DNA of 41,088 nt, from the NCBI GenBank assembly GCA_016180285.1, contig JACPBO010000010.1, positions 1 to 41,088 on the forward strand, read 5' to 3'. Under the pieces are notes generated by a model. That model did no database searches. It was not told the origin of the DNA and worked only from the letters and a program-made list of their open reading frames with translations. Source of the stretch: Candidatus Woesearchaeota archaeon (GTDB lineage: Archaea; Nanobdellota; Nanobdellia; Woesearchaeales; JACPBO01). This document shows, one piece after another, positions 12,356 to 25,694 of this stretch (within the stretch, counting starts at the first letter, position 1; each line of letters starts with the position of its first letter). The translations under genes and the position numbers were made by a program.

Positions 12356-13405
12356 TTACTTCAAACTCGACAAGTACCTTATCGCCCCCAGCGCAGCTTT
12401 TGCGCCTTCTCCTGCTGCTACAACGATCTGCTTTTCCGGCGTATTTGTAACGTCGCCTGCTGCAAAGATCCCGGGAATATTTGTTTTTGCTGACTGATCT
12501 ATGATTATTTCTCCGAACTCATTCTTTTTGGCGATATTTGCAAAATCTGTTTCAGGAACAAGCCCGATTTCAATGAAAACGCCCTGAACAGCAATAATTT
12601 TTATTTTGTCAAGAACCACATCAGAGATAGGTGGAATGTTGTTGCTATTCATAGCATCAGGTGGTTCTTGAGCATGCTCGGAAATTTTCCGCAATCTGAA
12701 ATTGATTGGCTTTCTGCCACCAGTTTTAAACTGGTGGAAAATTTCCGACATTTTATCCTGCTCTAACTTGATCCCTTTTACAAATTTATCCCCAAAAATC
12801 TCAACTGTTTTTGAATTATTCAAAACAGCCACTTTCTTGTTTTTTTCAATTTTCTGCCTTAATACTTCCTCTCCGCCAAGCTCGCCTGTTATATTGATCA
12901 TATAAATTTTATTTGCATACTTTGTAAGCTGCAATGCTGCATCTAATGCAGAATTCCCTCCGCCAATAACTGCCACGTCTTTTCCGGAAAACAAAGGGGC
13001 ATCGCATACTGCGCAATAAGTCACGCCTTTCCCCCTGAATTCCTTTTCACCAGGAACATTGAGCATCCTTGGCTTTTTGCCTGATGCTATAATGACTGTT
13101 TTTGCCTGATACTTTTTGCTGCTCTTTGCTTCAACTTCAAAAATGCTGTTTGGCTTTCTCAGCTCAACAATTTCATCAGTAATGATCTGCACATTATACT
13201 TTTTAACATGCTCTTCAAACTTTTGCGTAAGCTCTGCGCCAGTTATGAATTGGTAGCCAATGTAATTCTCAACATCAGATGACCATACTGCCTGGCCGCC
13301 AATGTCTTTTGAAATAATGAGAAAATCCAGCTTGTTTCGGGCTGCATAAACAGCAGCGCTCATTCCTGCTGGCCCAGCTCCGATTATGATAAGGTCATGT
13401 ACCAT
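12356..13405 (-). CDS. trxB: Thioredoxin reductase (with in-frame insertion)
   Basis: FAD- and NAD(P)H-dependent reductase of thioredoxin. Landmarks: FAD motif GAGPAGMSAA (9-18), redox disulfide CAVC (Cys131, Cys134), nucleotide-binding GGGNSALDAA (148-157), and the second FAD motif GIFAAGDVT (312-320). At 349 residues it is about 40 longer than usual; the excess is residues 219-266, inserted between GIKLEQDK and KIKIIAVQGVF inside the NAD(P)H-domain/linker region. The DNA of this insert is strongly palindromic. All catalytic motifs remain, so the enzyme is probably active. TATA box ATATTTAAAAAC (minus strand, about 13429-13440) sits about 25 bases before the ATG. Its likely partner is the thioredoxin at 34595-34924. 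Confidence 0.93.
   Translation of the reverse strand: MVHDLIIIGAGPAGMSAAVYAARNKLDFLIISKDIGGQAVWSSDVENYIGYQFITGAELTQKFEEHVKKYNVQIITDEIVELRKPNSIFEVEAKSSKKYQAKTVIIASGKKPRMLNVPGEKEFRGKGVTYCAVCDAPLFSGKDVAVIGGGNSALDAALQLTKYANKIYMINITGELGGEEVLRQKIEKNKKVAVLNNSKTVEIFGDKFVKGIKLEQDKMSEIFHQFKTGGRKPINFRLRKISEHAQEPPDAMNSNNIPPISDVVLDKIKIIAVQGVFIEIGLVPETDFANIAKKNEFGEIIIDQSAKTNIPGIFAAGDVTNTPEKQIVVAAGEGAKAALGAIRYLSSLK
12608..12751. mobile_element. Palindromic in-frame insertion in trxB (144 bases)
   Basis: The 144 bases encoding the extra 48 residues of TrxB contain three perfect inverted repeats: 11 bases at 12609-12619/12661-12671, 13 bases at 12678-12690/12736-12748, and 10 bases at 12717-12726/12728-12737 with a one-base centre. 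The outermost arms end one and three bases inside the borders inferred from the protein. It looks like a small palindromic repeat element that entered a coding region in frame, as described for Rickettsia palindromic elements; the comparison is mine. I see no second copy in the window. Confidence 0.6.
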
Positions 13406-23964: not shown

Positions 23965-24023
23965 TTTATTCTTCTCCTTAATTTATCAAGAACCACCTAT
24001 CAGATATGGGTGTAATGCTGCTG

Positions 24024-25694
24024 TCATTTCCTCTGATCATGCGGCACTAGAACAGCAGCTGATGTTATGGCATTATTTCCGGCGTTATCAGCTGATTCGA
24101 CAGTTATTGTATAATTCCTGCCGTCATTGTCGTTGCCATCTCTCCATGCTATCAGCTTTATCGAGGTATTAAATCCATTTACAGTATTTTTAACTTCATT
24201 ATACTCATCAATTAATTTGAAGCTGTTAATTTTAACGCCGCTTAAGGAATCAACAGCATAGCCATTTACCTTAACGCTCACTTCTTTATGGTCCGGAGGC
24301 CATATTTGATTTGGATTTAATGCCAAGCTTAACTCTGGCGGTGTTTTATCTATTTTTATTATTGTTTCTTTTGCTTCTTCTTTGTTGCCCGCATTATCTA
24401 CACTGTAATATTTCAAATACGCTATGCCCTCTGCTGTTATTGATATTGGCTCTTTATAGCTGATGTTTGGAACGCAAGCATAATTTCCAATGCAGTATAA
24501 TGTTTCTTTCACTCCGGATAAATCATCTGTGGCGCTTAAATTGATCACAGCATTTTTATTAACCCATGTGTTATTGTATTTATAATCATCCTTTGTGACA
24601 GGGGGCTCTGTATCTATCGCCATAATGACAGCATATACGCCTAAGTGGCCAATATGCGCGGTTAACTCATTTTTCTCTTTATTTATTGAAGCATTTTGAG
24701 CTATCCAATTATTGTTTTCTTCATCATAAAGATAAATATCCAGCCTATCTTCATTTATTGCCGGATCTTCATCATAACCTATAGTTATGGCTGAGGGAAG
24801 CGCAAATGCAAGTTCTTGGGGTATAAGCCTATAAACAACAAGGATATTATTTTCACTATTGATGTAAAGAGATGTATCTTCTTTCATAATTGTTATAATT
24901 GTACCGGAGAGAGCATTGTTTGTTGTAACAATAGTGCCGCTTCCTTTTAATGCATCAGGCGGGACATCTAGCTCTATGAAGGACCCTCTTAAGATTATAG
25001 AGCATCCTGGAGCTCCGCAAAGCGCTGATGTCGCAAGAGTTCCCGAACCAGCAGCTCCGCCTGTTCCTCCACCGGAACCGCCTCCAGCTGGCCCGCCAGC
25101 AGTTCCGCAGTCAACAGAGCTAAGCGGAGCAGGGGGATCCCATCTGGCATTCTCTAAACCATGGCAAACAAGGCGATAGTTTGGTTTATCATAGGCAAGA
25201 TGTGTAATGGTCCAGGACCATGGAGGGTCCCAGCGTTCATACCCACACCCAGGCTCGCCATCAGGATCAACGCATTTATATTTATTGCCATCCTGGGGCG
25301 GAGTATAAATAGGAGTCTCTGGCCACTTCTCAAAAGTCGGTTCAGTAGTGCAATCGCCAGTATAAAATTTTCTTATATTGCCATTGCAGTCGCAATAATA
25401 GCTCTGGTAAGAAACATCATTATTGTATGCCATCATAAATTGCGTATTGCTGCCGCCAACACGGCCCCCAACAGTTTGGGAACAGTCGCACCCGATTATC
25501 ATGTTTCCACTAACTTGATACATACTTACATGATTCTCAAAACAAAAATACTCTTGTATGCCCCCAGTGCCAAGAGCTGCGCATCCTTCATTACATCCGT
25601 TAACACTGTCGCTGCCACCGCCATTTGCCAGAGGAAGAACTACAAGAAATGCCAATAAGAACATTACTGAATAATTTATTTCCTTGTTTATCAT
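24024..25694 (-). CDS. Secreted multi-domain protein with ZU5-like and Ig-like domains
   Basis: A 556-residue protein: signal peptide (about 1-25), a Cys-rich region (about 30-195), a Gly-rich linker (about 203-220), a ZU5-like segment (about 232-355; ELDVPPDALKGSG, then YRLIPQELAFALP and HLGVYAV), an Ig-like domain of the OmpL47 type (about 362-455; LSATDDLSGVKETLYC to VDNAGN), and a second Ig-like domain (about 460-550) ending without a membrane anchor. The start is fixed by the four-base ATGA overlap with the gene before it. Probably a surface protein working with the glycine-rich protein of the same operon. Confidence 0.7.
   Translation of the reverse strand: MINKEINYSVMFLLAFLVVLPLANGGGSDSVNGCNEGCAALGTGGIQEYFCFENHVSMYQVSGNMIIGCDCSQTVGGRVGGSNTQFMMAYNNDVSYQSYYCDCNGNIRKFYTGDCTTEPTFEKWPETPIYTPPQDGNKYKCVDPDGEPGCGYERWDPPWSWTITHLAYDKPNYRLVCHGLENARWDPPAPLSSVDCGTAGGPAGGGSGGGTGGAAGSGTLATSALCGAPGCSIILRGSFIELDVPPDALKGSGTIVTTNNALSGTIITIMKEDTSLYINSENNILVVYRLIPQELAFALPSAITIGYDEDPAINEDRLDIYLYDEENNNWIAQNASINKEKNELTAHIGHLGVYAVIMAIDTEPPVTKDDYKYNNTWVNKNAVINLSATDDLSGVKETLYCIGNYACVPNISYKEPISITAEGIAYLKYYSVDNAGNKEEAKETIIKIDKTPPELSLALNPNQIWPPDHKEVSVKVNGYAVDSLSGVKINSFKLIDEYNEVKNTVNGFNTSIKLIAWRDGNDNDGRNYTITVESADNAGNNAITSAAVLVPHDQRK

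Follow-up and report, generated by a model that had tools for sequence, protein, structure and literature searches.

The window analysed here, a stretch of 41,088 nucleotides from a Candidatus Woesearchaeota genome, contains a thioredoxin reductase gene, trxB, that carries a palindromic element of 144 bp in its reading frame (Table 1). The original prediction held that TrxB is overlong by an in-frame segment, and this segment is real: the excess over the TrxB of a congener (genome G001) is exactly residues 219-266, which are encoded by the element plus one base of the target site. The predicted length of 144 bases stands; the proposed borders, 12608-12751, do not, as they follow the codons and lie one base off the DNA element because the element's first ATG codon takes its A from the target site. 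In the trxB orientation the element reads TGTC-hairpin1-GAGCATGCTC-hairpin2-GACA, has short terminal repeats (TGTCA..TGACA) and contains, at the places predicted, three inverted repeats of 11 bp (12609-12619/12661-12671), 13 bp (12678-12690/12736-12748, the core of a 24-nt imperfect pair) and 10 bp (12717-12726/12728-12737). The element strand folds at -49.7 kcal/mol compared with -29.2 kcal/mol for dinucleotide shuffles (z -5.1; 0/200). Elsewhere in the window, the decayed half of a second copy seems to supply the last codons of the 556-aa reading frame that it overlaps.

Table 1. Features of the trxB insertion and of a second, decayed copy in the window
Feature	Position	Strand	Basis
trxB, thioredoxin reductase, 349 aa, insertion host	12356..13405	-	Pyr_redox_2 match
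Mobile palindromic element, 144 bp, TGTC..GACA	12607..12750	-	family copies; congener empty site
Hairpin 1; stem arms 12736-12746 / 12680-12690; inner perfect hairpin 12717-12737	12680..12746	-	fold, covariation over 74 copies
Central palindrome GAGCATGCTC linking the two hairpin units	12670..12679	.	family alignment, unit count
Hairpin 2; outer arms AAGAACCAC / GTGGTTCTT	12611..12669	-	fold, covariation over 74 copies
5' target flank TAAAA directly before TGTC	12751..12755	-	present in empty site
Decayed right half of second copy	23986..24054	-	blastn match; overlaps last codons of 556-aa ORF 24024-25694 (-)

Empty sites and the insertion target

The congener trxB lacks the insert and is 86-88% identical on both sides of the site; its protein, 87% identical to that of the window, is without the segment, as are eight other TrxBs of the order, so that the expectation of empty sites in orthologues was met. 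Exact removal of TGTC..GACA from the copies in trxB and in the gene of an NTP-transferase/hexapeptide protein (L002) yields the congener site at equal length, and nucleotide comparison with the congener reveals no target-site duplication at either empty site. The congener also lacks the element at two further sites (L004 and L012), whose flanks have diverged more. On the hairpin-1 side, the copies share a conserved 5' flank, TTAAWA (about 1.1 bits each at positions -1 and -3), and the 5' flank of the congener's own copies is identical in type; the 3' flank is nearly free of conservation. Given that the 5' flank, including the TAAAA in trxB, is present in the empty sites, it is part of the target. 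At the level of the sequences compared, these data show (i) that insertion is precise, 3' of an A-rich target (TTAAWA) and without duplication, and (ii) that the trxB insertion postdates the split from the congener. Only one congener entered the comparison, so that the direction of the change, insertion as opposed to loss, rests on the outgroup TrxBs.

The short terminal repeats, together with a size and a copy number typical of MITEs, raise the possibility of MITEs that a DDE transposase moves via terminal inverted repeats. The duplication that would mark such elements is, however, missing from the resolved empty sites, those in trxB and the NTP-transferase gene being exact, and the conservation of the flanks is one-sided, and we regard this origin as unlikely.

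The repeat family and its taxonomic range

With positions 12600-12760 as query, blastn against the genome to which the window belongs (1.33 Mb in 51 contigs, 96% complete) returned 25 further matches at E<1e-6, which correspond to about 22 distinct places because some copies were matched in two halves. The best copy (C6:14477-14628) is 89% identical over its whole length (E 3e-50), the remaining full-length copies are 73-79% identical, and most copies are intergenic, some of them adjoining gene 3' ends. Recurrence of the segment outside trxB, which the original prediction had named as support, is thus evident from more than 20 further copies in the same genome and from copies in relatives.

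These data also bear on the view that the segment is an ordinary, lineage-specific insertion or domain of TrxB that is palindromic by chance. Its in-frame position and the preservation of every catalytic motif would suit such a domain. The same DNA, however, recurs mostly between genes, as well as in other proteins in another frame, and neither the closely similar congener protein nor the eight other TrxBs of the order have it. The dispersed non-coding copies refute the ordinary domain, to which we attach practically no credence.

The copies align with common ends and a common plan and usually measure 141-165 bp. Each element consists of two inverted hairpin units placed foot to foot, TGTC-hairpin-GAGCA and then TGCTC-hairpin-GACA; in five own-genome copies (L010, L011, L017, L019 and L021) an extra module of ~53 bp, which begins with a small TGTC-stem-GAGCA unit, lies between the hairpins. 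TGTC-stem-GAGCA units occur 189 times in the examined loci, versus 0-1 times for nine control (altered) foot pairs, and 173 of the 189 directly precede TGCTC or a closely similar sequence. In stem 1, positions 6-9, where the finding script did not require pairing, are paired in 71-72 of the 74 oriented copies, with 32-63 expected from column composition; judged by this excess of pairing, the stems are maintained by compensatory change. Small palindromes of like design also lie in or beside larger copies (L090, L096, L103, L119, L124 and L126), examples of which read TGTC-stem-GAGCA followed by CACTC, CAGTC or CATTC.

A scan of 84,980 species genomes for the exact core GAGCATGCTCAARAACCACC gave 70 matching stretches, almost all of them in records titled Candidatus Woesearchaeota, Nanoarchaeota or uncultured archaeon. 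In the order of the window's genome the core is found in 31 of 352 genomes, belonging to 25 genera; it is absent from 172/172 genomes outside the order in an even draw of the phylum, where a reversed control pattern gave zero matches. No Rickettsia was returned by the exact-pattern scan of the 84,980 genomes, and IMG/VR viral contigs contain no exact match to the core pattern. All range counts are lower bounds, given that only the exact core was asked for. By this measure the family is restricted to a single archaeal order, publicly named Woesearchaeota. Three records have titles that point elsewhere. The Magasanikbacteria-titled record LCRX01000014.1 has the same locus as the woesearchaeal JAGVXW010000026.1 (L107, L125) and is probably a mis-binned contig; a locus titled Aenigmatarchaeota (L076) belongs, according to genome grouping (G062), to the same order as the window; and a Flavobacteriales match (L078) lacks hairpins and is apparently due to chance.

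Alternatively, the copies could be kept as functional RNA or DNA signals, such as a terminator, an mRNA stabiliser or a nucleoid site, with mobility being secondary. The covariation of the stems would agree with this, as would the intergenic position of most copies and the proximity of some to gene 3' ends; stem conservation is, however, equally expected if hairpins are needed for movement. Moreover, the range is patchy, with the core pattern missing from most genomes of the order, copies lie inside genes, and orthologous loci have empty sites. We consider retention as a signal quite improbable.

Copies within protein genes

Among ~79 copies examined, four are clearly in frame inside long protein genes: those in trxB (144 bp) and in the NTP-transferase gene (147 bp; empty in the congener) in the window's genome, and those in a YgiQ radical-SAM gene (147 bp) and in a gene for a Lit-like membrane protein (207 bp) in another woesearchaeon, isolate RIFCSPHIGHO2_02_FULL_36_13. 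Copies in other genes had been anticipated by the original prediction. The criterion for a protein-invading element, that is, in-frame copies and orthologues without them, is met by orthologues for trxB, the NTP-transferase and YgiQ, the last of which is without the segment in three relatives (53-75% identity), and by an interrupted Pfam match for the Lit-like protein. A copy of 165 bp that is open in frame near the N-terminus of a long membrane protein (L037 / L101) may be a fifth coding insertion. Another copy of 144 bp (L003, G000:C11:22385-22535) lies in a short ORF and has several in-frame stops; unlike trxB, this ORF appears interrupted.

Three of the coding copies share one reading phase and trxB uses another; with two phases among four copies, no single peptide is selected. 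Of 71 non-coding copies tested, not one would leave trxB open in its phase, and seven would be open in the phase of the other three genes. Given that none of the 71 is open in the trxB phase, the insert in trxB is evidently translated and tolerated, although translation and TrxB activity are inferred. The catalytic motifs are all intact and the insert is in frame, as predicted, and since trxB is the only TrxB match in the genome, a dead gene is less likely. Compared with the congener, the flanking codons have a dN/dS of about 0.12 in trxB and about 0.17 in the NTP-transferase gene; these values, which average over the time before and after insertion, indicate that the flanking codons of both genes are under constraint.

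In an AlphaFold2 model of TrxB the reductase is confident and intact, with 223 residues scoring >=90, and residues 219-265 score <50 and are disordered between strands 209-216 and 267-272; the segment is looped out, an outcome that the original prediction had named as a possible result of modelling. A PDB fold search with the model returned thioredoxin reductases with modest TM-scores, which we take to be due to the usual domain rotation and the disordered insert, without further inference. According to the model, then, the element adds a floppy loop of 48 residues to TrxB, provided that the gene is translated and the enzyme active, as we infer. The loop would be tolerated because of its location between two strands, and insertions in needed genes would persist only with a length divisible by three and a phase free of stops.

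Archaea have introns that are cut by the tRNA splicing endonuclease. With its strong RNA fold, the element could instead be removed from the transcript, as a bulge-helix-bulge intron or a self-splicing RNA, and the protein would then never contain it. Against such removal, all four coding copies are divisible by three and stop-free in the phase used and most non-coding copies are not, Rfam gives no match in five copy-bearing loci, and splicing is needless for intergenic copies; we consider removal very improbable. We are nearly certain that a mobile repeat is read through in frame and infer that the ribosome reads through the insert in genes that remain under constraint. In total, the data are in our judgement best explained by a mobile non-coding palindromic family of one archaeal order that has inserted in frame in trxB, an explanation that we hold to be highly likely.

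Known palindromic repeats and possible mobilisation

Rickettsia palindromic elements (RPEs; Ogata et al. 2000, 2002, as reviewed in PMC10969869) are dispersed palindromic repeats of ~150 bp, some of which are in frame in unrelated protein genes, and nearly half of the first-reported RPEs are coding copies. The woesearchaeal element is likewise a dispersed palindrome of ~150 bp with some copies in frame in unrelated protein genes, but it differs from RPEs in its host domain, in having fewer coding copies (4 clear of about 79) and in lacking a single conserved peptide, because the four coding copies use two phases. The comparison with RPEs made in the original prediction is apt for behaviour; as homology is not shown, the element is comparable to RPEs, not a member. 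In organisation and tags it is closer to REPINs and CGTC/TGTC-tagged REPs.

In REPINs and BIMEs, two inverted hairpin units form a replicative unit that has no gene of its own and is mostly intergenic (PMC3116915). The woesearchaeal element shares the unit of two inverted REP hairpins, the absence of a gene of its own and the mostly intergenic location, whereas its foot is TGTC/GAGCA and not GTAG/GGAG, its hairpins are longer, its host is archaeal and it has no linked RAYT (TnpA_REP): Y1_Tnp has no match in the window's own genome, and in relatives the element does not flank the Y1 genes on both sides. In CGTC-tagged REPs, many repeats have the tag TGTC, head-to-head dimers predominate, and intragenic copies occur; stems are 8-9 bp and loops 4-5 nt, no dedicated transposase was found in bacteria, the class includes RPE-4 and RPE-6, and no archaeal family was found (PMC3733652). 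The TGTC tag, the predominance of dimers, the intragenic copies and the lack of a dedicated transposase recur in the woesearchaeal family, but most of its hairpin halves span about 63-90 nt, so that, short nested units excepted, the stem and loop sizes do not fit; homology is not shown here either. The element behaves like RPEs and is built like a REPIN, yet differs in sequence, tags and host domain, and we file it among the small palindromic mobile repeats, as a variant.

In the open-access literature, subscription papers being outside our scope, no earlier account of the element was found, in agreement with the claim that it had not been described, and no palindromic or MITE-like element of Woesearchaeota is described there. 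Discussion of protein-invading palindromes has centred on Rickettsia, and that of REPINs on bacteria; the family reported here belongs to a DPANN order and shows that protein-invading mobile palindromes exist in archaea too. Its clean empty sites in the congener make insertions datable and the tolerance of proteins for mobile loops measurable.

The Y1 transposases of IS200/IS605 elements insert precisely and without duplication, with conservation of the 5' flank only, an unvarying 3' tetranucleotide and subterminal hairpins. The woesearchaeal element resembles non-autonomous members of this group in its subterminal hairpins, lack of duplication and conservation of both a short 5' target flank and the 3' terminal tetranucleotide, and it meets the criterion of a single-strand element (no duplication, target flank conserved 5' only); it differs in that no TnpA with matching ends was found. 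From precise duplication-free insertion, 5'-only flank conservation, an invariant 3' tetranucleotide and the pair of subterminal hairpins, we tentatively suggest that copies may move in single-stranded form, with a Y1 (HUH) transposase acting in trans and recognising the DNA through its two hairpins, a mode of movement known for IS200/IS605 and proposed for REPINs. This Y1-type mobilisation is inferred by analogy, and we put slightly less than even trust in it.

IS200/IS605 Y1 enzymes read the flanking tetranucleotide via a guide at the hairpin foot (PMC6006769). In the woesearchaeal family flank and stem 1 vary together: ..ATA precedes 17/20 of the elements with ATATA in the stem, and ..AA precedes 33/34 of those with TTTT. 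Such covariation would be in keeping with tetranucleotide reading of this kind, but may also have arisen from common ancestry within subfamilies. The broader proposal of order-specific, single-strand-mobile archaeal twin hairpins whose own stem sequence sets the target, and which are a recurring source of in-frame protein segments, remains doubtful.

The search for a mobilising enzyme gave negative results. A Y1 transposase as linked partner was rejected: no element-bracketed Y1 gene exists among the 42 genomes searched, and the association of Y1 presence with carriage is not significant (14/23 carriers versus 7/19 non-carriers, P about 0.2). No transposase gene was found between intact element ends, and a composite element with a gene between distant halves was discarded, as far pairs at 488-1737 bp look like neighbouring separate copies. 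The element was not found at the congener's IS200-like gene. Only the IS200 subclass of TnpA has been reported in archaea (PMC6006769), and the family opens the search for a mobilising enzyme in a domain with this type of Y1 transposase alone on record.

Two observations concern Y1 genes directly. At L146 (530-551; G015:C37), a hairpin that follows a Y1 transposase gene has 22 bases (CCATCCAGTCTTTGACTGGTGG) identical to the consensus hairpin 1. At L239 (~1500-1545; G223:C112), an IS200-like TnpA gene is split by a mini unit of ~52 bp, which consists of two short hairpins and ends in TGCTC-stem-GACA; very short relatives of the element thus seem to be mobile as well.
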